Source of the DNA: Bacteroidales bacterium
Lineage (GTDB): Bacteria; Bacteroidota; Bacteroidia; Bacteroidales; M50B96
Direction of reading: 5' to 3'
Length of the DNA stretch: 36,283 nt
Assembly: GCA_021740905.1 (NCBI GenBank)
Contig: JAIOYV010000069.1
Coordinates: 1 to 36,283, forward strand
Under the pieces are notes generated by a model that was not told where the DNA came from, searched no databases, and was given only the letters and a program-made list of their open reading frames with translations. The first letter of the stretch is position 1. Each line of letters begins with the position of its first letter. A program made the position numbers and the translations under genes. Shown piece by piece: positions 1 through 36,283 of this stretch.

Positions 1-133
1 AACCAAATAAACCAAAAAGGAGGCAACATGTAAACCAAACATAAACGAATCTTGACAGTAGCGTAAGCCACTGAATAGGGAATTTATGCGCTTATCCCAA
101 ATGGGTTTCTAATATTACTCAGATTAGGAATAG

Positions 134-904
134 CTGATCCTAATAAACCTGATTGGAAATTCGCTTAAGTTTACCGATATAGGAGAGGTAAAATTGGTTG
201 TAGACCGAACGTTACATAACGACACAACCTGTACCCTTTACCTTACCGTAAAAGATACCGGCATAGGAATCCCTTCCGATAAACTTGAAAGTATTTTTGA
301 AAGCTTTGCCCAATCCGATATCAATACAACCCGGAAATATGGTGGTACAGGCCTGGGATTGACCATAACCAAAAAGCTGATTGAGCTTCAGGGAGGAAAA
401 ATTAAGGTGGAAAGCGAACCTGGGAAAGGATCTGCCTTTAGGGTGGAGATCCCCTTTAAAATAGATCGCGAACCCCTCAATCCAATCAAAGAAGAACCTT
501 TTGAATTTACTCCTTTTAATAATGATCTGAAAATCCTACTTGTTGAAGACAATGCTATTAATCAATTTGTAGCTTTGAAGTTGTTGAAAAACTGGGATGT
601 TTCAGCCGATGTGGCTAACAATGGAAAAGAGGCTCTCGAATATCTTCAGAATTATAAATACAACCTTGTGTTAATGGATTTACAAATGCCGGTTATGGAT
701 GGATTAGAAGCCACTCTCGCTATCCGAAGCCTCAATGGAAAAACCCTGAATTCTAAAATCCCAATAATTGGCCTATCGGCTAATGCATTTACCGAAACAA
801 AGGAAAAAGTAATAAAAGCCGGTATGGACGATTTCACTACAAAGCCCATCCAGCAAAAACAGTTGTATCAGATTATCAAGAAATATGCATTATCCAAAAC
901 CTAA
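134..904 (+). pseudogene. hybrid histidine kinase remnant (HATPase_c + receiver), N-terminus lost
   Basis: The readable part from TTG 194 has a kinase ATP-binding domain (residues about 10-90, with DTGIGIP at 21-27 and GGTGLGLT at 50-57). A receiver domain follows (about 112-232), with acidic E118/D119, phosphoacceptor D162 in VLMDLQMP and K217 in TKP. Coding similarity continues in the same frame upstream of the TTG: codons from 134 read LILINLIGNSLKFTDIGEVK, which is the kinase N-box. That stretch is preceded by in-frame TAG codons at 131 and 125, and no ATG precedes it. The dimerisation/phosphoacceptor domain and any sensor domain are absent, and bases 1-130 show no convincing coding frame. 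What remains could not autophosphorylate as a normal hybrid kinase, so I call it a decayed or 5'-truncated gene. The receiver half looks intact and could still fold if translated from the TTG. Confidence 0.75.
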
Positions 905-17494: not shown

Positions 17495-17575
17495 GGGGTT
17501 CAGGTAAAAATAATGAACAAAATCCTTTGTACTGTGCTGCATTTCAATTATATTAGTGGCAAAAAATTGATGATT

Positions 17576-20407
17576 ATGAAGAAAATACCTTTACTACTAG
17601 TTTTATGCTATTGGGGCGTTTTATCTATAAGTGCTCAAACAACTTTTTCATGGAGAAGTGAAGCCTCTGATGGAGACTGGCAACAATCAGGTAATTGGTG
17701 GGATGGAACTTCCTCTACAAATATTCCATTAGGATCAGAAGTTTTAACCTTTGCCAATGATGCTTATACTTCAATGACAAATGATTTGAGCTCTACGAAT
17801 AGGTACCGATTGTATTTTAATAGCGGTTGCACACAATCCCGAACAATTACAGGGTCTACAGAAAATACCTTCTATGAGTATAACTTTAACATCCCTAAAA
17901 TTGAGAACAATTCTTATGTCAGTCATACTATAAGCTTTCCAATAAAAAATGGGTATGTTGGTGGAATGGAAATTAATCCAATAAATGGTGATTTAACAAT
18001 TTTAGGTACATACAATACGAATGGGAATAGCACTATAATTTATGGGGCTGGCTCAAAGTTATTGACTTTTGGAGGAGTAGTTTCAGGATCAGGAAGTTTT
18101 GTTATTATACAATATAGCAAAGTAATGATTTCAGCGAATTCTACGGTATCTGGGAGCTTTGCAATTGACGAAGGAGAACTTTGGTTTAATGAAAATGGAG
18201 CACTTGGTGGTGGAACCATTTTTGTTGGAAATGGAGGTATGACAACTATTACTGCCAAAGTTTGGTTATACGATCAAGACGGCGGCACAACGTGTGATGA
18301 GCCGATTGTAATAAACAATGCAAATAGTTCAATTAAAAGGGTAATTGGCGGATTACATACTTCAAACACAAATACCTTTAGTGGTTCTATAACACTTAAT
18401 GGGCCTTTGACAATTGAAACACAATCTTCATCCGCCATTACTGAATTTAGTGGAGTAATCTCAAATAATCAGCTAATTGTTTCAAAAGGACCCGGCACAA
18501 ATTTACTAAGCGCAGAGAATACCTGGACAGGTAATTTGTATGTAGTTTCGGGAGCTTTGGAGCTAACCAATACTACCGATCCTCTTGACTGCCCTAATGT
18601 TTATCTTGGTGAAACTTTTGGGTCGGATGATGCTACTTTACAAATTGGTGCAAGTAGCGTTACTGTCGATAACAACATAGAAGTTAGAAGCGGAAGCTCA
18701 GGCACAAAATATTTGAAATATACTCCCACAAATGGAAGTGGCGAATTTAGTGGAACATTGGCATTGAGTAGTGATGTAACAGTCGAGGTGGCCGGTTCGA
18801 GTATCCTAACACAAAGTGGAATTATTTCAGGTGGCAATTCATTGACAAAAACCGGAACCGGAACTTTAGTGCTTACAGCAGATAATACCTATACCGGAAC
18901 AACAACAGTCTCAGCGGGTATATTAGAATTACAAGGAGATGTTAATTCAGGTACGATTATCGTTCAGAGTGGTGCAACATTAAGGATAAATGCCGAGGAT
19001 GTGAGTATTTTTACACTTACAATTAATAGTGGCGGAGTCGTTGAGATTTTACCAGGGAAGTCGCTTACATCCGCCAGTCTTGTAACAAATAACGCGGGAA
19101 ATTCAGGTATTATCATTAGGTCGGATGCATCTGGAAATGGGTCTCTGATATACAGCGATAGTGAAGTACCCGGTACAATTGAACGCTATATTCCCGGCTA
19201 CACTGGCAGTAATGATGGCTGGCACTTACTCTCATCTCCGGTTAGCATTTTTGAAATTGCAAATTCTGATTTTGAGCCTGACACTAATGATGACTTATAT
19301 GTTTTTGATGAAAGTTCAAATCAGTGGCTAAACTATAAAGTCCCCGGAAACAGTATAGACGATTTCATTCAAGGAGAAGGCTATTTAGTTGCATACGAAA
19401 CAACAACAACAAAGGAATTTACCGGAACAATGAATTATAGCAGTATAACTTTTGACGACCTTTCAGTTGGATCCGGAAGTGGCTGGCAATTGCTTGGCAA
19501 TCCTTTCCCTTGTGCCATTCAATGGAATACTCCATCGGTTGATTGGGCTATAACCGATTTTGGTGGAGTAGCAAAAGTATTAAACGTATCAAATGGTAAC
19601 TATCTGGATATTAATGCTGGTAACATTATCCCGTCAACCAATGGCTTTTTTGTGCAGGCCGCTAATAGCACAAATACTATAACTATTCCAAGCAGTGCCC
19701 GAACTCATAGCACAACGAACAATTACAAAACAACTACACCTAATAAACTTACAGTTTCAGTAACCAACAATGCAAACAGTTACGCCGATATCACTAATAT
19801 AGGCATAAAGCAAGATGCCTCAATGGATTTCGATTGGGCATTCGATTCTCACAAGCTTTTTGGATGGGAAACAGCCCCACAACTCTGGACAGCTATGGGC
19901 AACGAGATTTATTCCACAAACTATCTTGCACCCTTGCAGACTAGCTATTCCCTGCCCCTGAACTTCCATGCCGGGGTAAACAGCACATACCATCTGGCAT
20001 TTGAGGGAATTTCTTCGTTCGATGCCAACCTAAATATTGTTCTTGAAGATGTGTTAACTAATACACTGATTGACCTGACATCGCAGAACAACTATTCGTT
20101 CCAGGCCAGCACTGCCGATATTGACGAACGCTTTGTTTTACATTTCAATATGGTAAACGAAAATAACGAGCTGCAAATAGATGAAAAGATTCAAATTTTT
20201 GCATCCGAAGATCAGGTGCAAGTATTGAACAAAACGGGTGAAACTGGAAAGTTTTCTATTCTTAATACAAATGGACAACTCGTGTTCAATAAGCATTTAA
20301 CCTCACAAACCAGTCAGGTGTTTTCGATACAACTCGCCTCCGGCATTTATTTAATCCAGGCCACTGCCGGATCGGAAAATAAAAACAACAAACTATTTAT
20401 TCGCTAA
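17576..20407 (+). CDS. large T9SS cargo with autotransporter-type beta-strand repeats
   Basis: 943 residues from ATG 17576 (MKKIPLLLVL, signal peptide ending SISAQ). The frame opens at 17513, but the extra 21 residues have no function as a leader. In the longer numbering, residues about 45-545 are a beta-helix-like region with two autotransporter-associated strand repeats: GPGTNLLSAENTWTGNLYVV (about 326) and TGTGTLVLTADNTYTGTTTV (447). Residues 568-720 hold a module GWHLLSSPV ... GEGYLVAY ... GWQLLGNPFPCAIQW ... GFFVQA that is also present in the amylase at 20949. A beta domain ending DERFVLHFN and a type A T9SS sorting domain (FSILNTNGQLVFNK ... GIYLIQATAGS) complete it. Exported to the surface or medium; the substrate, if any, is unknown. 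A tiny membrane protein follows 18 bases downstream. Confidence 0.85.
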   Translation: MKKIPLLLVLCYWGVLSISAQTTFSWRSEASDGDWQQSGNWWDGTSSTNIPLGSEVLTFANDAYTSMTNDLSSTNRYRLYFNSGCTQSRTITGSTENTFYEYNFNIPKIENNSYVSHTISFPIKNGYVGGMEINPINGDLTILGTYNTNGNSTIIYGAGSKLLTFGGVVSGSGSFVIIQYSKVMISANSTVSGSFAIDEGELWFNENGALGGGTIFVGNGGMTTITAKVWLYDQDGGTTCDEPIVINNANSSIKRVIGGLHTSNTNTFSGSITLNGPLTIETQSSSAITEFSGVISNNQLIVSKGPGTNLLSAENTWTGNLYVVSGALELTNTTDPLDCPNVYLGETFGSDDATLQIGASSVTVDNNIEVRSGSSGTKYLKYTPTNGSGEFSGTLALSSDVTVEVAGSSILTQSGIISGGNSLTKTGTGTLVLTADNTYTGTTTVSAGILELQGDVNSGTIIVQSGATLRINAEDVSIFTLTINSGGVVEILPGKSLTSASLVTNNAGNSGIIIRSDASGNGSLIYSDSEVPGTIERYIPGYTGSNDGWHLLSSPVSIFEIANSDFEPDTNDDLYVFDESSNQWLNYKVPGNSIDDFIQGEGYLVAYETTTTKEFTGTMNYSSITFDDLSVGSGSGWQLLGNPFPCAIQWNTPSVDWAITDFGGVAKVLNVSNGNYLDINAGNIIPSTNGFFVQAANSTNTITIPSSARTHSTTNNYKTTTPNKLTVSVTNNANSYADITNIGIKQDASMDFDWAFDSHKLFGWETAPQLWTAMGNEIYSTNYLAPLQTSYSLPLNFHAGVNSTYHLAFEGISSFDANLNIVLEDVLTNTLIDLTSQNNYSFQASTADIDERFVLHFNMVNENNELQIDEKIQIFASEDQVQVLNKTGETGKFSILNTNGQLVFNKHLTSQTSQVFSIQLASGIYLIQATAGSENKNNKLFIR

Positions 20408-20948: not shown

Positions 20949-23900
20949 ATGGCTATGAAGAAAAGGTGTTTTATTTCGTTTGTCCTGATTTTTACAATCA
21001 GCTTTTTTCTTACAAATAATCCGCTTTTTGGGCAAAGTACCGAGAAAAAGGTGGTGCTACAAGGTTTCTGGTGGGATTACTGGAACAACAACTTTCCAAA
21101 CTCCTGGGCCGATTATTTAGCGGAACTTGCCCCCCGCTTAAAAGCTCTGGATATTGATGCCGTCTGGATTCCTCCAAGCTATAAAAATGCAGGCACTGGC
21201 AATGTGGGCTATACGCCATTCGATCATTACGATTTGGGGGATAAATACCAGAAGGGAACTACCACGACTCGTTTTGGCGACAAGGATGCATTTCTGAGAA
21301 TGGTAGCTATTTTTCATGCAAACGGTATTGAAGTAATCCAGGATGTGGTACTTAACCATGTGGCGGATGCCGGGGCTGTCAACGGACAAGGAGGCCAAGA
21401 CCCTGAATTAACTTTTTCCATGGCAACCAACAATGGCTATAAAAATTTCCGCTATGTTTGCTACGATACCCCTGTTCCTGAATTGGGTGAAAACGCTACA
21501 GAATATCTTTCCAGAACAGGCCGCTGGCCAAAGAACTACCCCAATTTTCATCCACACTTGGGGCATAACGATTCAAGTGGCGATTGGGCAAGTCCTTATT
21601 GGGGTCCCGATTTTTGCTACGGTACAGCACAGGATGGAACCGCGAATGGCTATGGACAAAGCTCAAATGCCACCTATAACCCAATTCAGGCCTACGACTA
21701 TAACCGCGACCAGGCCCGAAATTGGATCAAATGGTTCGTGAAGCAAACCGATGTTGATGGGTTTCGTTGGGATGCAGTGAAACATTTTCCCTATTTTGTT
21801 TTGCAGGATTTAAGCTGGAACGTGAAATATGCAAATGATTGGGCGGGGCGAGGCGAAAGTATGTACAATGTTGGCGAATATGTCGGTGGAGCATCCGAAT
21901 TGGACACCTGGGTCAATAATGTGAAGAATTCAAACAACGGAAACGATGAGTTAGCAGGTACCTTCGATTTTTCGTTGCGCGGTGCAGTATATAATATGGT
22001 GACAGGGAATGGAACTTATGACATCGGGAGTATCCCCAGTGCCCAACAAAGCAGCCGGGTCACTTATTATTCGGGAAGTAACACGTATGTTCACCGAACT
22101 GTCCCCTTTGTGAACAACCACGATACTTTTCGGCCTACGGTGGATAGCTATGGAAACTATACCGGTTGGGATACCGGCAATGAGTTGGCTGCCCATGTTC
22201 ATCCCGAAGATGGACGCTTGTCGGCCGCTTATGCGATAATATTTGCTGTGGATGGAAACCCAATGGTGTTTTTCGAAGACCTGTTTAATATTGGAAGCAC
22301 CAGTAAAAGATGGTCGCACGAACCAACAAACACCACAGATTTGCCAGTAAATGAAGACTTGTTGAACATCATCTGGTGCCACCAGAATTTGGATTTCAAA
22401 TCGGGTGAATATTTGGTGAGATGGCAAGCAGGCGATTTATTAATAATTGAGAGATCAGGAAAAGCACTGATTGTGATCACCGACAATTGGGATACATGGC
22501 AGGGAGCAACCGTTCAAACCAACTTTGCCAACGGTACAGAATTAATCGATTACTCCGGTGCAAACACAGGATCGAAATGGGTAAATGCAAGTGGGCAGGT
22601 TGAAATTTATGCACCTCCATGCAATGGTACAGCAAACTTTGGAAGAAGGGGTTATGCCATTTATGCACCTGCCGGGATTACTGGAACCTATCAACCCTCG
22701 CGAAATAATGTAACCACACAGGAATGGGAAATGGAAAACGACCTGGGTGATATTCACTGTAGTTCACTCAGGCAGGGTGGCAAACTGCCTGATAATTCAA
22801 CAGAAAAAAGAATTGCCGGAAAAATATTTGTTGAGTCGGGTCAGGATGTGGATTACATACTCTATCCAGAGAATTCATCCAATTCATTAACCGTTGGCTT
22901 GTTTAATCTGGAGGGCACTTTACTCGATAGTGAATCGGGGACCGGAACCTTAACTGGAAATTTCACAACCTCTTCAACCGGATGGATAGTGATAAAGGCC
23001 AACAATACTTCTGCGACCTATTTAGGGCAGAAATGCTGGATAAAGGTTTCGTACCAAGCCCCACAAGTAGTCGATACTGATACATACCCTGCCCACCCGG
23101 GCACAGCCACTTGGACAGGGAATGTTGATACAGATGCTTCCGATTGTCATAACTGGCAGGAAGAATTCACACCTCGCTACGACATGAATGTGCTGATCCC
23201 CACAGGAGCACCCAATATGCCTGTTTTTGCATCGAACTTAGAATGTCAAGAACTCGACATTGAAAGCAACGCAAGCCTAACCGTGAATGCCGGTACACAA
23301 ATTACTGTGAATGGCGATTTTACATTGAATGGTACGCTCCTCTTGCGAACTTATGGAGGCTCGCAAGCTACATTGTTAGACAATGGAACAATTACAGGAA
23401 CCGGAAATTTGCAGGTGGAACAGTATCTAATCGAAGATCAGTGGCACTACATTTCTTCACCAGTTTCTGCCCAAACAGCTCAATTCCTAAATGGCGCCTA
23501 CATGAAAACCTTCGATGAAAGCAACAATAATTGGGGCCCATACATTAGTAGTCTTAGTACTGTCTTAACACCCCAACAAGGATATGCGGTTTGGCTTACA
23601 ACATCGGTGGTGGCTACTTACGATGGATTTCCAAATACCCAGGCCGTAGGTTCTTACATGGTTCAGAATACCACAAAAATTACAGACGGCTATAATTTTA
23701 TAGGAAACCCATTTCCCTCTGCCATCGACTGGGATGCCACCAACGGTTGGAATAATCAAAACCTGGGTAGCCAGATTTGGATGTGGAATCCTACCTTTGG
23801 GCAATACGGTAGTTATGTAGCTGGAAACAATGGAGTAGGCACCAACGATGCAAGCAACATTATCCCTGTTGGGCAAGGATTTTTTGTTCAAGCAACAGCT

Positions 23901-24641
23901 GCCGGAAGTGTACAAATGGACAACCGGATCCGGCAACATAACAACGCATCGACATTCAAAAGCACAACAGTAGAAGATATTTTAAAATTGAAAGTAAGCT
24001 CTGCCAGTGGAGGCGATGAGTGTCTCGTTTCTTTCCGTCCTTATGCCAACCATTTGTACGATGAAACTTACGATGCCGAAAAATGGATGACTTCCGATAC
24101 GACCAAACCATCGCTTTATACAATTGCCGGGGGGATTCAACTTTCAAACAATACCATGGGGAGCTTACAAGGTAGCATTGACATCCCTCTTTCATTTGTA
24201 CCTGGTAGTGAAAATTATTATCAGCTATTTTCATTTTATGATGAAAGTTTCGATGCTACTATTTCAATTTTTCTAGAAGACTTATTTACGACTCAATTTA
24301 TTGACTTACGGACTTTCTCGAATTATTCCTTTGCTGTAACGAGCAATCCTTCTACCGATAGGTTTGTGTTACATTTTAATTCATTGATAACTGAAATGCA
24401 GGAATGCGAGTTGTTCGACTTTAGCTGCTATGTGGGGACGAACTATATTCATATTGAATTCAATAAAGAGATTACTGATGCGATTTCTATCTCCTTATTT
24501 GATTTACAAGGCAGATTGTTAACTCAGATGACGGCGGGTAATAAAAGTCAAATCCTCCCAAAACCTTTGGCAAGTGGCATTTATTTAATCCATATTACTG
24601 AAAGTAAAAATACGCTTTCAAAGAAAGTTTTCATTGATTAG
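20949..24641 (+). CDS. secreted GH13 alpha-amylase with T9SS type A sorting domain
   Basis: 1230 residues with a signal peptide (about 1-29, ending LFGQ). Residues about 33-480 are a GH13 catalytic domain that hydrolyses alpha-1,4-glucan (starch, glycogen). The family motifs are present: DVVLNH (132-137), GFRWDAVKH with nucleophile Asp275, NVGE with acid/base Glu310, and VNNHD with Asp392. A C-terminal beta domain of the amylase ends near GYAIYAPAG (about 578). Then come accessory beta modules, including a pre-peptidase-like region (about 615-700), TATWTGNVDTDASDCHNWQ, and the WHYISSPV ... GFNFIGNPFPSAIDW-type module shared with the cargo at 17576 (here read as YNFIGNPFPSAIDW). The type A sorting domain (ISISLFDLQGRLL ... 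GIYLIHITESK) ends the protein. It is far longer than free alpha-amylases (about 450-500 residues), which fits a surface enzyme. The downstream small protein begins within about 15-45 bases. Confidence 0.95.
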   Translation: MAMKKRCFISFVLIFTISFFLTNNPLFGQSTEKKVVLQGFWWDYWNNNFPNSWADYLAELAPRLKALDIDAVWIPPSYKNAGTGNVGYTPFDHYDLGDKYQKGTTTTRFGDKDAFLRMVAIFHANGIEVIQDVVLNHVADAGAVNGQGGQDPELTFSMATNNGYKNFRYVCYDTPVPELGENATEYLSRTGRWPKNYPNFHPHLGHNDSSGDWASPYWGPDFCYGTAQDGTANGYGQSSNATYNPIQAYDYNRDQARNWIKWFVKQTDVDGFRWDAVKHFPYFVLQDLSWNVKYANDWAGRGESMYNVGEYVGGASELDTWVNNVKNSNNGNDELAGTFDFSLRGAVYNMVTGNGTYDIGSIPSAQQSSRVTYYSGSNTYVHRTVPFVNNHDTFRPTVDSYGNYTGWDTGNELAAHVHPEDGRLSAAYAIIFAVDGNPMVFFEDLFNIGSTSKRWSHEPTNTTDLPVNEDLLNIIWCHQNLDFKSGEYLVRWQAGDLLIIERSGKALIVITDNWDTWQGATVQTNFANGTELIDYSGANTGSKWVNASGQVEIYAPPCNGTANFGRRGYAIYAPAGITGTYQPSRNNVTTQEWEMENDLGDIHCSSLRQGGKLPDNSTEKRIAGKIFVESGQDVDYILYPENSSNSLTVGLFNLEGTLLDSESGTGTLTGNFTTSSTGWIVIKANNTSATYLGQKCWIKVSYQAPQVVDTDTYPAHPGTATWTGNVDTDASDCHNWQEEFTPRYDMNVLIPTGAPNMPVFASNLECQELDIESNASLTVNAGTQITVNGDFTLNGTLLLRTYGGSQATLLDNGTITGTGNLQVEQYLIEDQWHYISSPVSAQTAQFLNGAYMKTFDESNNNWGPYISSLSTVLTPQQGYAVWLTTSVVATYDGFPNTQAVGSYMVQNTTKITDGYNFIGNPFPSAIDWDATNGWNNQNLGSQIWMWNPTFGQYGSYVAGNNGVGTNDASNIIPVGQGFFVQATAAGSVQMDNRIRQHNNASTFKSTTVEDILKLKVSSASGGDECLVSFRPYANHLYDETYDAEKWMTSDTTKPSLYTIAGGIQLSNNTMGSLQGSIDIPLSFVPGSENYYQLFSFYDESFDATISIFLEDLFTTQFIDLRTFSNYSFAVTSNPSTDRFVLHFNSLITEMQECELFDFSCYVGTNYIHIEFNKEITDAISISLFDLQGRLLTQMTAGNKSQILPKPLASGIYLIHITESKNTLSKKVFID

Positions 24642-25282: not shown

Positions 25283-26815
25283 TTACTTCTTATAAATATG
25301 AACCCATGCGTCATCGTACTCGCCTTCACGGACTTTGCGCATATCCAGCAGGGCTGGTTGAAGTTCATCGTACTTGGCTGTATAGATATAATACCACTTT
25401 CTGGTTTCGTTGTAAAGTATGTTAGCAGTATAGCCTTTGCTGTTTGCAATTCCAACACCACGCCTTGCATTTTCCAAATGTCTGAAAGAATAAACAATCA
25501 CGTAACAGCCATCTTCTACAGATTTCTTATCGAAACTTACATTCTTACCGGTTCCTTGAATTTTATTAAGCTCGTAAACTTTTTCGCCTTTTATTTCAAG
25601 CACATTTTGCTTTAGCTCCTGCAATTCTTTATTCAGCCTATCTAGTTCACCTTGGTCTGTCGAATTCTTTGGAATTATCGTTTTGGTACCATCGTCCGAT
25701 TTAAAATTATCCAACTGATTTCGCAGACTATCAATTTCGGCCTGAAGTTTTTCTTCGAGTGCTTTAATATCGTTGTTATTGCTTCCTGCTGGACGATTAT
25801 TTAATCCCTCAACATCAGAATTAATCTTATCAACCTGCGATTTCATCAAAAGCTGACGGTCATTCATTTCCTTTATCTTCTCATCCAGTTTTCTGTCTTC
25901 CTTCGCCTGGCTGCTAAACTTATAAGTAAGCATTAGTTCATGGGTGCCATTTGAATATTCAGTGGGCAAGGTATTGGCAATTTGGTATGCATAAGCTATT
26001 CCCAGATTGTTTACCTGAATACCGCCCGATACAACCATGCTTTTGTTTGTTGGCCTGTAGGTAAATCCCAACCAATGATTTTTACTCGTCCCGGCAATCA
26101 GATTTATATCTAATTGCTCTGGTCCGGTTGGCGCCATCTTATAAAGCACCGAAGGCTTGAGAAAGAATTTCTCTTCAGCTTCCTTTTTAATACTAATCCG
26201 ATATCCAGAATGGATAAGATAATGGCGTTTCAATTCAAAAGCATAATCTTTCTGGTTGTTTCCTTGATAGCTTATATCGTTGTCAATAACCTGGGGGATG
26301 GCAACCCCCAATTCAAATCCTCTAAAATTATAAAGTATCCCAAATCGTGCATCGAAGGCAAATCCATCATTGTCGTTATAAAGGAGCGGGTCGAAATCCT
26401 GTGTCCGTCCTTCTGAGGAATTTATTTTATTCTCGATAAAGCCGACGCCCATGCCAAAAGTCAGGTTGTGCTTTTTCTCTCTCGAAAAATGAATTTTATA
26501 AGAGTAATTTAAACTTCCTGAAAGCCGTTCGATCATACCTGCTTTGTCTCCGGTTATTAAAACGCCGAGACCCATCTTATCGTTATACGAATCGTGTATA
26601 CCAAAGGAACCAGTACGTGGGGCCATTTCAAATCCTGACCATTGTTTACGTGCATCGACAAAAGCCTGCAAATAATCCTGATTGCCCGTAGCTGCAGGAT
26701 TAATTAGGAATAATTGCTGGTGATAGAGACTGAACAATGGTTCTTGTTGTGCCATTCCGCTTTTAACTATTAAAAACAAAAATATGATGGCAGATATTGT
26801 AAGTATTTTTTTCAT
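25283..26815 (-). CDS. PorP/SprF-family T9SS protein extended by coiled coil and SPOR-like domain
   Basis: 510 residues with a signal peptide (1-22, ending GMAQ). Residues 23-300 match PorP/SprF: the opening QQEPLFSLYHQQLFLINPAATG is diagnostic, followed by barrel strands to LMLTYKF. PorP/SprF proteins are outer-membrane partners of the T9SS and usually stop near 310-340 residues. Here a charged coiled coil follows (about 303-410, with LEEKLQAEIDSLRNQL and LDRLNKELQELKQNV) and then a C-terminal domain (about 434-510: GCYVIVYSFRHLENARRGV, GYTANILYNETRKWYYIYT). Its pattern fits the SPOR fold, which binds denuded peptidoglycan. The combination would tie the outer-membrane barrel to the cell wall. 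The gene lies 20 bases downstream of a type B cargo gene, as is usual for such pairs. Confidence 0.85.
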   Translation of the reverse strand: MKKILTISAIIFLFLIVKSGMAQQEPLFSLYHQQLFLINPAATGNQDYLQAFVDARKQWSGFEMAPRTGSFGIHDSYNDKMGLGVLITGDKAGMIERLSGSLNYSYKIHFSREKKHNLTFGMGVGFIENKINSSEGRTQDFDPLLYNDNDGFAFDARFGILYNFRGFELGVAIPQVIDNDISYQGNNQKDYAFELKRHYLIHSGYRISIKKEAEEKFFLKPSVLYKMAPTGPEQLDINLIAGTSKNHWLGFTYRPTNKSMVVSGGIQVNNLGIAYAYQIANTLPTEYSNGTHELMLTYKFSSQAKEDRKLDEKIKEMNDRQLLMKSQVDKINSDVEGLNNRPAGSNNNDIKALEEKLQAEIDSLRNQLDNFKSDDGTKTIIPKNSTDQGELDRLNKELQELKQNVLEIKGEKVYELNKIQGTGKNVSFDKKSVEDGCYVIVYSFRHLENARRGVGIANSKGYTANILYNETRKWYYIYTAKYDELQPALLDMRKVREGEYDDAWVHIYKK

Positions 26816-28277: not shown

Positions 28278-31200
28278 TTAACGCCTATTCAGTATAATAG
28301 GTTTAACCTTCACTCCATCCTTCGTAATAAATTGAACCATATAGGTTCCATAATTGTATGACGACAAATCGTATTGCCTATTCATCGACATCCTATCGAT
28401 AAAGAACATCTCTTCTTCAACGACCCTGCCAACGGCATCGAATATCCGTACTGTCACGTCGCCGACAAAATGATCGGTTTCGTACGAAATGGTAAATATG
28501 CCATCGGTTGGGTTCGGGAACATGTTAATCAAGACCGAAGCTTCGAATTCTTCAATATCGGTAACCTGAACATAAATTGTAAGAGTATCCATATCGGATC
28601 CACAGTCATTTTTAACAGTAAGAATTACTGTATAATAACCAGTTGAGGTGTACTGATGGGTAACATTATTAGTTGTGTAAACAGTATCTGTTGTGCCATC
28701 GCCAAAGTCCCAAATATAGGTATTACCATTCGACGAGAAGTTTACAAATATAACTGTACCACCAGCATTTACATTGGTGAAATTAGCAACCGGGAAGTCC
28801 CCGGTAAATGGAACAAATATAGATTCTTCCACAGTACATCCGTGGCTGTCGGTCACTGTCACATCATAAGTGCCAGAAGCTAGCCCGGTGAGATTCTCAG
28901 TAGTAGCACCGGTTGACCAGGCAAAAGTATAAGGTGCCGTTCCTCCGGTTGGTGCAAGATTGATAGATCCTTCCAAATTATCCCCACATTCATCAGGAGT
29001 CACTGAGTATGGAACCAAAAGTTCAGTAGGTTCAATAACAGCAGCACTGCTAGTCACAGTACATCCATTCATGTCGGTTAGGGTGAAGCCATACGTACCA
29101 GCATACAAACCAACAATGTAATCAACTGCAGTTACTGCATTCGACCACAAATAAGTATACGGCATAACTCCACCGGTAATGGTGGCATGTACTGCTCCAT
29201 CATGCTCGCCATAACAACTGATAGCAGTAGCATTTAAAGAAACTGCAAGTTGATCAGGCTCGGTCAATGTAAGAGTTTCGATCGAAATACATCCATTCAG
29301 ATCAGTAACAGTTACGGTGTATGTACCAGCTCCAATGTTTGTAAGATCCTCATTTGTTCCAGCAGCACCCCAATCAATTGCATAAGGACTTAAGCCACCA
29401 GAAACGGTCAGATCAATACCACCATCGGTTTCGCCATTACAACTGATCGAATATCCATTATAATCGGTAGTGATAAGCGCCGAGGTAATCAAGGCAGGTG
29501 GTTCAGTCAAGGCCAAAGTAGAAGTGATTACACATCCATTGACATCCGTTACGGCTAATGTGTAAACACCAGCCCCAAAATTTGTCAAATTTTGTGTATT
29601 TGCTACCACTGCCCCCGAAGCATCGGTCCATTCAAACAAGTATGGTGGTAATCCACCCATCAGGTTGTTCACATTAATGTTTCCATCGCTAGCACCATTA
29701 CAGCTAATGGAATAGCCATTGTACATAGCCAGGCCAGGATCAGAAAGTGTAAACGAAATCAACATAGGTTCAGTAATGGTAATAAACTGTACGCCGAAGC
29801 ATCCATTGGCATCGGTAACTGTAACAGAATAAAATCCGGCACAAAGTGAACTAATATGATCAGTTATTGCACCCGTATTCCAGATATAACTATATGGTGC
29901 AACTCCACCCGTTGGAGTAATAAGAATATCGCCATCACATTCACCATTACAACTAACACCGAATCCATTGTAGTTGGATACAGTTACCAAAAGATCAAGA
30001 TCTACCGGTTCTGTCAAGGTGTAACTTAATTCAGCCGCACAACCATTTGCATCGATCACTATCAGCGCGTAATTTCCTACAACCAAGTTGTTAAGATCCT
30101 GTGTTGAAGCACTTGGAGTCCAACTATAGGTATAAGGAGAGACACCTCCTGTTACGGTAACATCAATCCAACCATCGGATAAGCCATGACAACTAATATT
30201 GTATCCATTGTAATCGCTAAGTATAGCGGTAACAACCAATTCCGTTGGCTGTGTAATTTCGATCGTATTCAATTCTTCACAACCATTGGCATCGCTTACT
30301 GTATAGCTGTAGAAACCGGCGGCTAGACCTGAATTAGTAGAAGTTGTAGCTCCATCGCTCCATGCGTAACTATATGGAGAAACACCACCATTCACATTCA
30401 GTGCAATTACCCCTGTTGAGTCGCCATAGCAACTTACATTTGATATGGTTTCTGATACAGCTAAACCACTTGGCTGGCTAACTACAAAACTACTTTCTAT
30501 TGTACAATTGTTGGCATCGATCACACTTACTGTGTAAGTACCTGCCAATAGTCCATAAATATCCTGACTAGCCCATCCGTTCGACCATGAATAGAAATAT
30601 GGCGAAACGCCACCAGTAACAGTAATATCTACCGCACCACTTGCATTACCATTGCACAACACATTAGTTACAACAGCAGTAATCGAAAGTGCAGCAGGTT
30701 CTGTTATCACATAAGAAGCGGTGAAGACACAGCTATTGGCATCGGTAACAGTAACATCATAAGTACCCGCTCCAATAGCAGATAAATCTTGCGTTGTCAC
30801 ATTTCCGGTCCAACTATAAGTGTAAGGCATAACCCCTCCAGAAACTGTCAGATCAATTGCACCAGTTAACAGTCCATTACAAAGAACATGTGTAAGCGAA
30901 CTAGTTACTGCAAGTGTCAATGGTTCTGAAATTGTATATGTTGCAACAAAAGTACAACCATTAGCATCGGTTACAGTTACTGTATATGAACCAGCAAGTA
31001 CACCGGCCATGTCTTCTGATGTTGAACCATTTAACCAGGCAAAGGTATATGGTGAAACACCACCAGAGACACTTAGGTCGATTGCTCCTGTTGCATTACC
31101 GGCACACAGTACATCAGTAATCGCTCCGGTTACAACAAGTGGAGTAGGTTCAGTAATCGTAAAGGTTTCAATGTGTGTACATCCATTTGCATCAGTAACA

Positions 31201-34200
31201 GTAACAGTGTAGCTGCCACCTGATAATCCATTAAGATCTTGTAAAGGGAATCCATTTGACCAGATCACGGCATAAGGCATTACGCCACCTGATACTGTAA
31301 GATCAATTGCACCCGTAGCATCACCTGCGCAAAGCACGTTGGTAGCTAATGCAGATACGGTAAGCAATGGAGGCTCAGAAACCAGAAAATCAAGACCAAC
31401 TGAACAACCGCTGGCATCGGTTACAACAACACTGTGGGTTCCAGCAGGTAGACCATCAATATCCTGTGTTGTTACGCCATTATATGTCCAAAGGTAAGAA
31501 TAAGGGACAACACCACCAGTTACAGTAATATCTATTTCCCCATTTGATTCACCATAACAAGCAACTGGTGTAATAACATTAGCAATGTTAATTGCAGGTG
31601 GCTCGGTAACTACATAAGAAGTAGTATATAGACAGCCGTTTGCATCGGTTACCATTACCTCATAAGTACCCGCTACAAGGGTATCAAGGTCTTCGGATGT
31701 AATACCTCCAGTCCAATTGAAAGAATATGGTGCAATACCACCTGTTACCGTAATATCAATGGCTCCTGTTGAAGCACTAGCGCAGTCAACATTTGTTATG
31801 ACGCCAGCTACCGAAACAGCAGTAGGCTGAGTTATTGTTACAAACTGCACTAATGTACAAGCATTTGCATCTGTAATGGTAAGCCAGTATACACCCACAC
31901 CGAGATTAGCTATCGTACCAGAGGTTTCCGTATTGCTCCATTGGTATGTAAATGGCGCAACACCACCTGTCACGTTGGCTTGGATCTGACCATCGTTTCC
32001 ACCGAAGCAACTTACATTGGTCACTGTAAAAGAATTTGCAAGTTGTGCTGGTTGGTCAATGAAAATTGAATCTGAAGACATACAACCATTGACATCTACC
32101 ACATCAACAAAATACCATCCTGAAACAAGGTTGTTCAGATTGTTGATTGTTGTTCCTAATGAATTTGTCCAAACTAAAGTATAAGCAGGAGTACCTCCTG
32201 TTATATTCGCGGAAATCGATCCATTTGCATTACCAAAACAACTTACATCAGTTCCCGACAAGGATATTGCCAATGGGGCAGCCTGACCTACAGAAATTGC
32301 ATAAGTTGCTTCACATCCATGATAATCGGTAACCACAATGGTATAAATACCAGCAACCAGATTTGTAATGTCTGCGGTAGTGGCATAAGGATTCCCGCCA
32401 AAAGTCCATACATACTGATAAGGATTGATCCCACCCACAGCAGTTATGTTGATAAATCCATCATTGCCACCATTACAACTTACATCACTAACTGAATCAA
32501 TCACAAGACTTAATACCTGAGAAGGTTGTTGTAAGTAGAAATCATCGAATTGTGTACAACCATTAACATCGGTAACAGTTAAACTGTACATACCTTCAAC
32601 CAAACCTGAAATACTATCGGTGGTAGGTACAACACCAACACCAAATGGTCCTGCCCATGAATATGTGTAAGGACTTGTTCCTCCAATAACATTGGCTACT
32701 AGCGAACCATTTCCACCTACGGTACAATCAACATAGTGGTCAAAGGTAATTTCAATCGAATCAGGCTCAACGATAGATTCACTTTCCACAACGGTACAAC
32801 CATTTGCATCAGTCACGGTCACTTCATAGTTGCCAGCTAACAAACTTGTAATTGTTTGCGTAGTTTCAGAGTTGGACCAGAGATAAGTGTAGGCGTAGGC
32901 TGTAACACCACCACTGACATTAACTGTAATTGATCCATCATTGTATCCGAAACAGCTAGCATCGCTTATGTTAAACGAATCTATTGTCAAAGGTGTTGGT
33001 TCTGTAATTGTGAAGTCTTCCACAAATTCGCATAAATGATCATCGGTAATCGTAAGGGTATAAACCCCTGCCGATAATCCTGAAATCGAGGTTGTAGTTT
33101 CAGAGTTCGACCATGCATACAGATATGGGGCAATTCCTCCGGTTGCAACTGCACTTAAATCACCGTCCGAACCTCCATAGCAACTAACATTAAAGTTGTT
33201 GTAATCTGAAGCCGTAAAAACAATACCTAAGGTATCGGGTTCTGTAATTTCAATACTGTCGATCAACACACAAGCATTGGCATCGGTAATCGTAACAAAA
33301 TACCATCCTGCAAATAAATTTGCCATGTCTTCAGTGGTTTCACTATTCGACCATGCAAAAGCATAAGGCATAGTACCATCAGAAACTGACAGGTCGATGG
33401 TTCCATTCGATTCTCCATTACAAATCACATTGGTTCCTGAAATTGTTGACACTAATGGGTCGGGTTGTGTTATTGTGAAATATTCAATTAAACTACAACC
33501 GTTCGCATCGGTAACCTGAACACCATAAGTCCCAATAGGAATACCTACTAGGTTTTGGGTAGTTTGCCCTGTTGCCCATAAATATGAATAAGGGGCAGTA
33601 CCACCATTAATGGTCAAATTAATAGCACCATCCGAGAAACCATAGCAAGTAACATGGCTGATAGTTTCAACGATTTCAATTGCATCAGGCTGAACCAGAG
33701 TGTAAGTTTCAATCAGTTCACAATTATTAAAATCAGTAATTGTTATTTCATACACCCCTGCTACAAGACCATTCACAAAGTCAACACTGCTACCCGTGCT
33801 CCAGGTATATGTATAAGGAGCAATGCCTCCGGTAGCTTGAAGAACTATCGAGCCATTGGCTGCGCCATAACAACTAATATTCATTCCATTGTAATTGGAA
33901 AGAACTGCATTTGCCACGATTGGCATTGGTTCGGTAATAACAACAGAAACAGTTGGATTAGTCACAACAGCAGTTGTTCCGGTTAAACTTACTAATCCGC
34001 TTAGGCCATCAACTACCCAGTTACCTGCATCGGTAAACGCAGGATCGGTAGAATAAACAGGCTCAACTTCAATAGCGCTTCCGCCGGTTAATACCATCCA
34101 GGTAAATTCTTCCATGGAGGTAAAGCCATTTGTTTGGCCTGCATCGGCACCCCAAACTGCTATAATCTCAGTACCTCCGGTCCACTGGACATATCCGGCA

Positions 34201-36283
34201 CAAGCCATAGCTCCAAGAGAGTCATAGAAGGCGCCAACAAGGTCGTTCACTGCTAATGGATTCCCATCAATAGTAATACTTCCTGCAGGGATCATAACAA
34301 GATGGCTATTGCCTGTTATTGAATAATTCCAATTAACAGCATTTACTCCTCCTGAAATAACCGAAACGGCCACACAGTTATTGGCATCAGTAACAGTAAC
34401 ACTATAGGTTCCTGCTGATAAACCTGAGACCGCACTAGTAGTTTCACTGTTCGACCAAAGATAAGTATAGGGAGATACTCCACCAGTAGCTACCACTGAA
34501 GCTTCGCCATCTGAATTTCCAAAACAACTGACACCATATCCGTTAAAATCGGTAAGAACTTGTGCTGTAGCTTCTAATAAACTTGGCTCATTAACAATTA
34601 CAGAAACAATATACGTACAAGCATTGCCATCGGTAACTGTAACCTCATAGTTTCCAGCAGTCACAGCGGGAAGATCTTGGCTTGTTTCGCCATTCGACCA
34701 AAGATATGTATAAGGCATTGTACCACCTGACACAGTTGAAACAATGCTACCATCGTTACCACCATTGCATGTTACATCGCTAGCAACGAGACTTGCAGAA
34801 AGAACTACAGGTTCTGTAACTGTATAGTATTGAATGATTGAACAACCATTTACATCAACCACTTGCACGCCGTAAGTTCCAATAGAAAGTCCAGAGATAG
34901 AATTTGTAGTTGCATTTGTGGTCCAAAGGTATGAGTAGGGTGCTGTTCCACCAGTAGGCGTAATTAAAATGACTCCATCGAAACCGCCGAAACAACTGAC
35001 ATTTGTTATAGTGCCAGCAAGTGAAATTGGCGTGGGTTCTGTAAGTGTATAGTTTTCGACTAAAGAACAACCATTAGCATCCATTATAGTAACAGTATAC
35101 GTACCAGCAATCAATCCATTGATAAATGAAGCAGAACTACCATTACTCCAACTATATGTATAAGGTGCAACACCTCCATTTAGCTGTAAAACAATTGATC
35201 CGTTTGATCCACCAAAGCAGCTTACATTTACTCCATTGAAATTGGAAATAATTGAATTAGATACTATTTGAGTTGGTTCTGTAATTACAGCAGTAATTGA
35301 ACTACCACCAGCAGAAACGCTCGAACCGGTAAGAGTAACAATTCCACTTAAACCATCTACTACCCAATTTCCAGCATCGGTAAAAGCAGGATCGGTTAAA
35401 TAAACAACACTCAATTCAAGAACATTTCCTCCTGTTAATGCTAACCAGGTGATTTCTTCCATGGAAGCAAAACCATTAGCTTGACCAAAGTCTGCGCCCC
35501 AAACTGCCATGATTTCAGTATTGCCCATCCACTGAACATATCCGGCACATGCAAGAGTACCCAGTGAATCGTAGAATGCTCCAACCAAATCATTTACTGC
35601 AAGAGCATTTCCATCAACGGTTATACTTCCTGCCGGGATCACAAATAAGTGACTATTTGCTGTAATTGAATAATTCCAATTTGTAACAGAAGATGTCGTA
35701 ATTCCTTCAACAGCAACACATCCGTTTGCATCGGTTATGGTCACCGAATAAATACCTGCAGACAAGTTCATAAGATCCTCGGTGGTTTCACTATTTGACC
35801 ATAAGTATTGATATGGCATAGTTCCACCTGAAACGGTCACGTCAATTGATCCATCAGCGTTTCCAAAGCAAGTAACATCAGTTGTTGCCGTTGTTGCGGT
35901 TACTGCGTTCACATTCAAAGTAAGAACTACTGTCGAATCACAGCCGTCAACGGTGGTGAATACTTCAGTGAATGTGCCAGCTGCGGTCAATGTTTGAGTA
36001 CCGAACTGATAAGTATCGCCATCGCAAATGGTAGCAACATCGGTCGTGTTATAAACCGGGTTCACATTCAAAGTAAGGACTACTGTTGAATCACAGCCGT
36101 CAACGGTGGTGAATACTTCGGTGAATGTGCCAGCTACAGCCAAAGTTTGAGTGCCGAACTGATAAGTATCGCCATCGCATATAGTGGCCACATCGGTCGT
36201 GTTATAAACCGGGTTCACATTCAAAGTAAGAACTACTGTCGAATCACAGCCATCAACGGTGGTAAATACCTCTGTGAATGTTC
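28278..36283 (-). CDS. giant SprB-repeat surface adhesin, type A T9SS domain; 5' end outside window
   Basis: At least 2668 residues; the frame is open to the right edge, so the real N-terminus is missing and the TTG at 36224 is not a start. In order from the edge: tandem 51-residue repeats (VYNTTDVATICDGDTYQFG ... CDSTVVLTLNVN); 27 SprB repeats by my count, each about 70-85 residues with the pattern V(S/T)C.G..DG.I...GG..PY.Y.WS ... GTY.VT(V/I)TD.NGC; two copies of a 119-residue domain opening NWNYSIT among the first nine SprB repeats; a PKD domain (WDFGDGTTDTVY); and a type A sorting domain (MFPNPTDGIFTISY ... GTYMVQF). SprB itself is the mobile gliding adhesin of Flavobacterium and carries a type B domain, so this type A protein is a relative in repeat content only. 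It probably serves adhesion at the cell surface. Confidence 0.9.
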   Translation of the reverse strand, partial: TFTEVFTTVDGCDSTVVLTLNVNPVYNTTDVATICDGDTYQFGTQTLAVAGTFTEVFTTVDGCDSTVVLTLNVNPVYNTTDVATICDGDTYQFGTQTLTAAGTFTEVFTTVDGCDSTVVLTLNVNAVTATTATTDVTCFGNADGSIDVTVSGGTMPYQYLWSNSETTEDLMNLSAGIYSVTITDANGCVAVEGITTSSVTNWNYSITANSHLFVIPAGSITVDGNALAVNDLVGAFYDSLGTLACAGYVQWMGNTEIMAVWGADFGQANGFASMEEITWLALTGGNVLELSVVYLTDPAFTDAGNWVVDGLSGIVTLTGSSVSAGGSSITAVITEPTQIVSNSIISNFNGVNVSCFGGSNGSIVLQLNGGVAPYTYSWSNGSSASFINGLIAGTYTVTIMDANGCSLVENYTLTEPTPISLAGTITNVSCFGGFDGVILITPTGGTAPYSYLWTTNATTNSISGLSIGTYGVQVVDVNGCSIIQYYTVTEPVVLSASLVASDVTCNGGNDGSIVSTVSGGTMPYTYLWSNGETSQDLPAVTAGNYEVTVTDGNACTYIVSVIVNEPSLLEATAQVLTDFNGYGVSCFGNSDGEASVVATGGVSPYTYLWSNSETTSAVSGLSAGTYSVTVTDANNCVAVSVISGGVNAVNWNYSITGNSHLVMIPAGSITIDGNPLAVNDLVGAFYDSLGAMACAGYVQWTGGTEIIAVWGADAGQTNGFTSMEEFTWMVLTGGSAIEVEPVYSTDPAFTDAGNWVVDGLSGLVSLTGTTAVVTNPTVSVVITEPMPIVANAVLSNYNGMNISCYGAANGSIVLQATGGIAPYTYTWSTGSSVDFVNGLVAGVYEITITDFNNCELIETYTLVQPDAIEIVETISHVTCYGFSDGAINLTINGGTAPYSYLWATGQTTQNLVGIPIGTYGVQVTDANGCSLIEYFTITQPDPLVSTISGTNVICNGESNGTIDLSVSDGTMPYAFAWSNSETTEDMANLFAGWYFVTITDANACVLIDSIEITEPDTLGIVFTASDYNNFNVSCYGGSDGDLSAVATGGIAPYLYAWSNSETTTSISGLSAGVYTLTITDDHLCEFVEDFTITEPTPLTIDSFNISDASCFGYNDGSITVNVSGGVTAYAYTYLWSNSETTQTITSLLAGNYEVTVTDANGCTVVESESIVEPDSIEITFDHYVDCTVGGNGSLVANVIGGTSPYTYSWAGPFGVGVVPTTDSISGLVEGMYSLTVTDVNGCTQFDDFYLQQPSQVLSLVIDSVSDVSCNGGNDGFINITAVGGINPYQYVWTFGGNPYATTADITNLVAGIYTIVVTDYHGCEATYAISVGQAAPLAISLSGTDVSCFGNANGSISANITGGTPAYTLVWTNSLGTTINNLNNLVSGWYFVDVVDVNGCMSSDSIFIDQPAQLANSFTVTNVSCFGGNDGQIQANVTGGVAPFTYQWSNTETSGTIANLGVGVYWLTITDANACTLVQFVTITQPTAVSVAGVITNVDCASASTGAIDITVTGGIAPYSFNWTGGITSEDLDTLVAGTYEVMVTDANGCLYTTSYVVTEPPAINIANVITPVACYGESNGEIDITVTGGVVPYSYLWTYNGVTTQDIDGLPAGTHSVVVTDASGCSVGLDFLVSEPPLLTVSALATNVLCAGDATGAIDLTVSGGVMPYAVIWSNGFPLQDLNGLSGGSYTVTVTDANGCTHIETFTITEPTPLVVTGAITDVLCAGNATGAIDLSVSGGVSPYTFAWLNGSTSEDMAGVLAGSYTVTVTDANGCTFVATYTISEPLTLAVTSSLTHVLCNGLLTGAIDLTVSGGVMPYTYSWTGNVTTQDLSAIGAGTYDVTVTDANSCVFTASYVITEPAALSITAVVTNVLCNGNASGAVDITVTGGVSPYFYSWSNGWASQDIYGLLAGTYTVSVIDANNCTIESSFVVSQPSGLAVSETISNVSCYGDSTGVIALNVNGGVSPYSYAWSDGATTSTNSGLAAGFYSYTVSDANGCEELNTIEITQPTELVVTAILSDYNGYNISCHGLSDGWIDVTVTGGVSPYTYSWTPSASTQDLNNLVVGNYALIVIDANGCAAELSYTLTEPVDLDLLVTVSNYNGFGVSCNGECDGDILITPTGGVAPYSYIWNTGAITDHISSLCAGFYSVTVTDANGCFGVQFITITEPMLISFTLSDPGLAMYNGYSISCNGASDGNINVNNLMGGLPPYLFEWTDASGAVVANTQNLTNFGAGVYTLAVTDVNGCVITSTLALTEPPALITSALITTDYNGYSISCNGETDGGIDLTVSGGLSPYAIDWGAAGTNEDLTNIGAGTYTVTVTDLNGCISIETLTLTEPDQLAVSLNATAISCYGEHDGAVHATITGGVMPYTYLWSNAVTAVDYIVGLYAGTYGFTLTDMNGCTVTSSAAVIEPTELLVPYSVTPDECGDNLEGSINLAPTGGTAPYTFAWSTGATTENLTGLASGTYDVTVTDSHGCTVEESIFVPFTGDFPVANFTNVNAGGTVIFVNFSSNGNTYIWDFGDGTTDTVYTTNNVTHQYTSTGYYTVILTVKNDCGSDMDTLTIYVQVTDIEEFEASVLINMFPNPTDGIFTISYETDHFVGDVTVRIFDAVGRVVEEEMFFIDRMSMNRQYDLSSYNYGTYMVQFITKDGVKVKPIILNRR
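28806..35907 (-). repeat. array of about 27 SprB protein repeats
   Basis: Coding repeat array within the giant adhesin. Units are about 210-250 bp and diverged at the base level but constant in the GG..PY and TDANGC landmarks. Each usually has one Cys near its start and one near its end. Confidence 0.9.
32988..35681 (-). repeat. higher-order duplication, two 1347-bp blocks in the adhesin
   Basis: Block one (35681 to 34335) and block two (34334 to 32988) each contain the 119-residue NWNYSIT domain (35325-35681 and 33978-34334) followed by four SprB repeats. Repeats in matching positions resemble each other more than their neighbours: for example GTYGVQV.D.NGCS in the second repeat of both, GTMPY in the third, and VATGG plus WSNSETT in the fourth. 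The start-to-start distance is exactly 1347 bp (449 codons). Confidence 0.8.
35908..36283 (-). repeat. 153-bp tandem repeat at the window edge
   Basis: Units start at 35908, 36061 and 36214, exactly 153 bp (51 codons) apart; the third is cut by the edge. The two full units differ at roughly a dozen positions by my hand count, so they are far more alike than the SprB repeats next to them and may be recently expanded. Confidence 0.9.

Follow-up and report, generated by a model that had tools for sequence, protein, structure and literature searches.

A giant SprB-repeat gene at the contig edge

The window analyzed here is the whole of contig JAIOYV010000069.1 of a Bacteroidales bacterium (assembly GCA_021740905.1; 36,283 nucleotides). 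Its right-hand end is occupied by a minus-strand gene for a giant SprB-repeat protein with a type IX secretion system (T9SS) tail, of which 2667 residues are readable; the 5' end of the gene is missing because the end of the contig is reached (Table 1). From the N- to the C-terminus the protein consists of two and a half copies of a 51-residue repeat, a SprB repeat (S00), a 119-residue domain with the motif NWNYSIT (N1), repeats S01 to S04, a second such domain (N2), repeats S05 to S26, a PKD domain and a type A sorting domain. SprB repeats (PF13573) are recognized in 27 stretches with 883 bits against a cut-off of 28, and the C-terminal domain exceeds the cut-offs of both PF18962 (74.3 bits) and TIGR04183 (45.1 bits). 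A stretch 74% similar to the 153-bp repeats opens another contig of the same genome (G000:C134:3-169); with such repeats at two contig ends, assembly breaks may coincide with them.

Immediately downstream lies the gene for P0003, a PKD protein whose sorting domain is of type B, followed by a PorP/SprF gene (25283-26815, minus strand). The PorP/SprF protein has a long additional C-terminal half, by eye a probable coiled coil, and a SPOR-like end that scores below the cut-off (E 0.099) and might reach the peptidoglycan. Elsewhere on the plus strand, a 901-residue frame (5741-8446) joins a membrane H+-pyrophosphatase (residues 13-716) to a YceI domain (residues 733-897), a second frame (17513-20407) carries autotransporter-type PATR repeats together with a type A sorting domain of the T9SS that passes the NCBIfam cut-off and falls just below that of Pfam, and a third (20949-24641) encodes an alpha-amylase-like protein of 1230 residues with a type A T9SS sorting domain.

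Table 1. Features of the SprB-repeat gene, in window coordinates.
Feature	Position	Strand	Remarks
SprB-repeat gene	28278..36281	-	5' end past contig edge
153-bp (51-residue) tandem repeat, 2.5 copies, ~91% alike	35902..36281	-	at contig edge
Block 1: S00 (probable host of N1)-S01-S02-S03, 448 codons	34536..35879	-
Block 2: S04 (probable host of N2)-S05-S06-S07, 448 codons	33192..34535	-
S00 head, SprB repeat without last strand	35682..35879	-
N1, 119-residue NWNYSIT domain, probably nested in S00	35325..35681	-
Probable displaced last strand of S00, SSITAVITEPTQI	35265..35303	-
S04 head, SprB repeat without last strand	34335..34535	-
N2, NWNYSIT domain, probably nested in S04	33978..34334	-	AlphaFold pLDDT 95.6
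Probable displaced last strand of S04, TVSVVITEPMPI	33918..33953	-
S01	35004..35228	-	reciprocal best with S05 by protein
S02	34779..35003	-	reciprocal best with S06
S03	34536..34778	-	counterpart of S07, not its nearest neighbor by protein
S05	33657..33881	-
S06	33432..33656	-
S07	33192..33431	-
S08	32964..33191	-	aligns with S04, without nested N; right edge of block homology
S09-S26, remaining SprB repeats	28797..32963	-	right end approximate
PKD domain	28563..28775	-
Type A T9SS C-terminal sorting domain (PF18962 / TIGR04183)	28293..28523	-

Homology between two blocks of the array

A preliminary description of the locus reported an exact 1347-bp repeat, one N domain followed by four SprB repeats, duplicated without net length change. 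The distance from N1 to N2 is indeed exactly 1347 nt, but the copies are only 59.6% identical in protein and 62% in DNA; they align over 500 residues (residues 136-636 against 584-1084), and this alignment carries two 1-residue gaps. Homology runs from residue 136 (position 35876) to about position 33030. Four SprB repeats follow each N as described, but the alignment begins with S00 and S04, so that the block starts one SprB head further upstream.

It had also been proposed that repeats at equal positions within the blocks match best, and that a distance matrix in which they did not would refute the duplication. The matrix is mixed, with two of four SprB pairs in agreement by protein. S01/S05 (63% identity) and S02/S06 (60%) are reciprocal nearest neighbors among the 27 repeats; S03/S07 (51%, ranks 4 and 5) are not, and S04/S08 (54%, ranks 3 and 2) are only loosely paired. 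The heads S00 and S04 are 58% identical (ranks 2 and 1), the repeats nearest to S04 being, in order, S00, S09 and S08. In DNA, with identities taken from codon alignments since freely gapped pairwise values were inflated, the ranks are 2/1 for S01/S05 (S17 being nearer to S01 than S05 is), 1/1 for S02/S06, 1/4 for S03/S07, 2/1 for S04/S08 and 11/7 for S00/S04. When the comparison is widened to 457 SprB copies from the searched stretches of this genome and the contig itself (547 found, less 90 that were too short), S01/S05 and S02/S06 stay reciprocal best, and S03 and S07 find better partners elsewhere. Taken as runs, the offset-four series from S00 and S01 rank first and second by protein, and second and first by DNA, of 209 run-of-four diagonals. 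With the run fixed at S01, the observed protein similarity was attained in none of 20,000 shuffles of repeat order and the DNA similarity in 0.02% of them. Between the two N domains themselves, identity is 79% in protein and 75% in DNA.

Such similarity could in principle be positional, arising if N constrained the repeats beside it without any duplication of the block. Between proteins, repeats close to N resemble each other a little more than other repeats do (0.40-0.44 against 0.38), but equal positions (+1/+1, 0.427) are scarcely closer than unequal ones (+1/+2, 0.414). Both values stay far below the 0.63 of S01/S05 and the 0.60 of S02/S06, and we regard a positional origin as very improbable. 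We read the block similarity, from the sequence comparisons above, as a single duplication of the block, after which the copies diverged for a long time.

Across the genome, pairs of N within one frame that are at least 0.60 identical are followed by first repeats with a mean identity of 0.55 (n=6), against 0.42 for N pairs below 0.50 (n=39), and the identity of N pairs correlates with that of the following repeats (Spearman 0.44, n=60, p 0.0004). Two other stretches of this genome, L048 (286 residues) and L054 (281 and 1090), look from their sequence like further doubled N-bearing blocks, whereas in L053 an N pair 0.62 identical has flanks at only 0.41-0.51. The alignment, the repeat ranks and this genome-wide comparison together support the original proposal that the array grew in part by duplication of multi-repeat blocks. 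A crossover inside S04 is only suggestive: its footprint there has p 0.03 in protein, 0.39 in DNA and 0.07 at third positions, and in a DNA control of 19 repeats S05 gave a lower p (0.014) than S04.

Age of the duplication and constraint on N

Of 134 four-fold codons that blocks 1 and 2 share, the third base agrees in 50, where base composition predicts a fraction of about 0.33. The NG86 method gives dN 0.35 and dS 1.92 for the whole block and dN 0.15 and dS 1.44 for N1/N2; for S00/S04 it yielded no dS. Synonymous sites are thus near saturation and the duplication is old. The 153-bp repeats of this gene at the contig edge, with their similarity of about 91%, could suggest a recent, length-variable duplication of the Periscope type or an assembly artefact for the blocks too. 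With 38% of their bases different and synonymous sites almost saturated, however, the blocks stem neither from a recent event nor from mis-assembly, and we find such an origin scarcely credible. In the three genomes of the same family, no N is nearer than 47% to N2, so that there is no orthologue with which to date the old doubling more closely.

The N domains have diverged less than their surroundings, with 94 of 119 residues identical, compared with 204 of 381 in the rest of the block (p 6e-7). Four-fold sites are alike in 19 of 42 codons in N and 31 of 92 elsewhere, which is not a significant excess (p 0.25); gene conversion as the source of the higher N1/N2 identity is therefore not supported, and the pattern points to selection.

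N is a large family of confidently predicted fold

Searches with 70 N members against Pfam and NCBIfam returned single-member weak matches only (best E 0.0071 and 0.0055), and the N profile found nothing with E below 0.31 among PDB sequences, bearing out for these three collections the earlier statement that N belongs to no named family. The motif strings of N and of the cassette described below had no match in the literature searched, and the portions of the SprB-repeat literature that were covered do not describe the domain.

One N sequence gave 104 matches in its own genome at E up to 1, and a search with a hidden Markov model identified 140 copies in 66 open frames from 60 stretches of this genome and the present contig, some of these frames being gene fragments truncated where a stretch ends. 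N-bearing frames cover about 5.6% of the genome. Incomplete copies were dropped from some of the comparisons; the N alignment holds 70 of the 140 copies, and the alignment of spans with an SprB repeat on either side of N (S-N-S) holds 34 of 36. The abridged consensus is W.Y.NTG.NH.ILIP..I.G.P..GDYIGVFYDS.G.L.CGGY..W.G..AWG.D.G.DGF..GE.F.WK.W. Exactly one cysteine is present in 65 of the 84 copies scoring at least 100 bits. The conserved cysteine of the C-G-G-Y motif is unusual in a secreted domain.

AlphaFold predicts N2 as an eight-strand all-beta domain (pLDDT 95.6, pTM 0.88). Fold matches are weak: the best is to residues 40-164 of lipoxygenase 5ek8 (Z 7.3), transthyretin-like structures score lower (Z 4.2-5.6, rmsd about 4), and no known family stands clear of the rest in the fold lists.

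Support for nesting of N within SprB repeats

Many SprB repeats end in a strand resembling FTITEPxxL, about 12 residues past the second cysteine. SprB repeats directly before an N within an array are without this terminal strand, and the strand reappears after N. A simple 'x[EQ]P' pattern captured this in the genome of the contig (1/35 S-to-N tails, 11/16 N-to-S linkers after an SprB repeat); in the three related genomes it gave 4/17 against 0/40, and a relaxed form gave 10/17 but also 17/35 in controls. Given this weakness in the relatives, the pattern was replaced by a 14-column profile of the terminal strand, built from 154 S-to-S junctions of the contig's own genome and applied at a threshold of 8 bits; stretches of fewer than 14 residues were dropped, rows after N exclude N copies under 80 bits, and the relatives took no part in building the profile. 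The junction profile alone left the owner of the strand open, and contexts were accordingly split by the presence of an SprB repeat before or after N.

The strand reaches at least 8 bits in 259 of 414 S-to-S junctions of the contig's own genome, a count that includes the source junctions of the profile, and in 147 of 248 in the relatives. Where an SprB repeat follows N, S-to-N tails lack it throughout (0/34 own, 0/12 relatives). It is found in N-to-S linkers when an SprB repeat precedes N (28/36 own, 9/16 relatives; 37/52 pooled), and rarely when none does (1/7 in each; 2/14 pooled); stretches upstream of the first SprB repeat of an array have it in 1/76 and 1/46 cases. The strand tracks the presence of a repeat before N, not after it, and hence belongs with the preceding repeat.

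A different partition would make N an in-line domain between complete SprB repeats, with the ITEP strand as the first strand of the next one. Domain boundaries in repeat arrays do depend on phase, and three counts fit an in-line placement. After the last SprB repeat of an array, where nesting predicts the strand, it reaches the threshold in just 5/58 own and 5/30 related cases; and where an SprB repeat precedes N and none follows, it is detected neither behind N (0/24, 0/18) nor, save once, in front of it (1/19, 0/17), several of these front tails ending by eye in a variant such as ITINSP. Set against this are its near absence before the first repeat and the pooled 2/14 against 37/52, which an in-line N would not lead one to expect, and the alignment of single Ig/Fn3 domains across the insertion. 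In an AlphaFold model of S04, N2 and the tail (pLDDT 87.5, pTM 0.64; N2 at model residues 71-189), such domains align through both flanks of N. Residues 4264-4338 of GhpA (9flx), for example, align over 65 residues within the model span 1..207 (Z 6.8, rmsd 1.9), where the output gives span ends without residue pairs and a Z under 8 can mean a common arrangement. We judge the in-line partition improbable.

Taken together, the strand counts and the model support a position of N inside the first SprB repeat of each block, before its last strand. With N nested in S00 and S04, the doubled block consists of four SprB repeats, 448 codons in all, with the first as host; the doubling in the preliminary description stands, and its unit of N plus four repeats in a row is replaced by this one.

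A nested N should lengthen the shaft little or not at all. It could nonetheless serve the shaft purely as a spacer or stiffening element and bind nothing: the domain is confidently predicted as all-beta and turns up in many settings, among them a row of five consecutive N in this genome, and neither a binding site nor a ligand of N was found. On the other side, N1 and N2 show stronger conservation than the repeats bearing them, and tandem N stands close to the beginning in some frames and close to the sorting end in others. A purely structural role is possible, if doubtful.

Distribution and history of N

Three genomes of the same family hold 38, 54 and 25 copies of N, and two of 27 other genomes of the order hold 6 and 2. 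In a sample of the class, with at most 11 candidates scored per genome and the three family relatives not among the rows, the contig's own genome alone matched (1/396). A scan across named organisms yielded 64 N loci, 40 of which were tabulated, 16 from a LacPavin MAG and 24 from more distant organisms. A layout of N, about 190 residues, a second N-like domain and a sorting end of about 95 residues recurs among these 40, in hosts from the Flavobacteriales, Cytophagales, Chitinophagales, Ignavibacteria and others. Among them, only LacPavin loci show S-N-S layouts, which makes the nested form look like a special use, within one lineage, of a more widespread domain.

In the genome of the contig a C-terminal cassette is likewise recurrent, with N, about 188 residues, a shorter N-like domain and a T9SS sorting domain (L056, 6592-12084, plus strand; L049, 312-16316, minus strand); it is also present in several MAGs. 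Its middle part consists of two repeats of about 90 residues with the motif 'GWS.FSTYI ... VKDGNG.VYWPQYG', and the one example scanned had no Pfam match there.

N1 and N2 are sisters with an SH-aLRT of 100 in a 77-row tree of this genome, which left out the 60 rows of the relatives and a random 17 of 62 non-nested own rows. Its topology implies 8 changes of the nested label against a shuffled mean of 24.8, supported branches forcing just 2; a 154-row FastTree that includes the relatives, and leaves out incomplete copies and five cassette N rows, implies 15 against 39. The sequence nearest to the N1/N2 pair is a nested N (L047) in the 77-row tree and a non-nested N in the FastTree.

Discussion

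It is probable, in our assessment, that this gene encodes a T9SS-dependent Ig-like shaft in which N is nested in two repeats and whose four-repeat block was doubled long ago by unequal recombination. The SprB repeats would form a surface shaft, displayed through the T9SS as the sorting domain suggests, with N inserted before the last strand of S00 and S04; from that position, N should project to the side while the shaft itself continues without a break. The N pair arose through a doubling of four successive repeats (host with N and three further SprB repeats; 448 codons), for which unequal homologous recombination among like SprB repeats is the most likely route, each such event adding a head together with shaft length. 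Purifying selection would have preserved N far better than the repeats. N may serve as a binding, adhesive module, with the SprB repeats supplying length. More speculatively, N may be a new family of adhesive domains that moved, in one Bacteroidota lineage, from the C-terminal cassette into a fixed loop of the SprB repeat, block duplication setting the number and spacing of sideways heads as on a barbed grappling line; we offer this as a tentative picture.

Block duplication is common in repeat arrays. What is uncommon is an unlabelled domain of confidently predicted fold, present in 140 copies, that appears to be inserted at one defined site of a shaft repeat. An understanding of this one 119-residue domain would help to annotate dozens of large surface proteins, and side-mounted heads on T9SS shafts would be relevant to gliding, attachment and predation in Bacteroidota.

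SprB proper is a gliding adhesin that is propelled along the cell surface with SprF and GldK. The protein described here resembles SprB of Flavobacterium johnsoniae in its PF13573 repeats, its giant size with a T9SS tail and a PorP/SprF gene two genes downstream. It differs in that N is probably nested in two of its repeats, that its own sorting domain is type A while the type B domain (TIGR04131/PF13585) sits on its neighbor P0003, and that the PorP/SprF gene comes directly after P0003. The sorting domain of SprB is type B (PMC9143113), and SprF has a twin-cysteine motif (PMC12635249); the nearby PorP/SprF protein has a single cysteine and so lacks such a motif. Its likelier partner is the adjacent type B protein (PMC9143113), and this, with the type A domain, makes the name SprB unsuitable for the present protein.

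A second comparison is with GhpA of Aureispira sp. CCB-QB1 (5898 residues; 9flx, 9flp and others), whose Ig-like domains match the SprB repeats. By profile the match has a whole-chain E of 5.9e-14, a value summed from many weak stretches none of which passes alone, and by fold it has Z 6.4-6.8; on both counts GhpA is the closest relative of the shaft among the solved structures that this analysis turned up. N has no match to GhpA among the sequence or fold matches listed. The likeness is one of fold and profile of the Ig-like repeats alone, whereas the GhpA hook is multimeric and prey-binding; grappling hooks are reported to consist of a T9SS-secreted protein (PMC11205867).

Periscope Proteins are rod-like surface proteins whose repeat number varies by proposed homologous recombination (PMC9704523). 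Their tandem repeats are highly identical and differ in number between strains, whereas the blocks described here are old and about 60% alike, with a four-repeat block and its probably nested domain as the unit; among the 153-bp repeats at the contig edge the similarity is about 91%. For the nesting itself, a counterpart is offered by pilus adhesins such as RrgA, in which a second domain is inserted in an Ig-like fold on a surface shaft, the insert there being of the von Willebrand A type and the pili those of Gram-positive bacteria.
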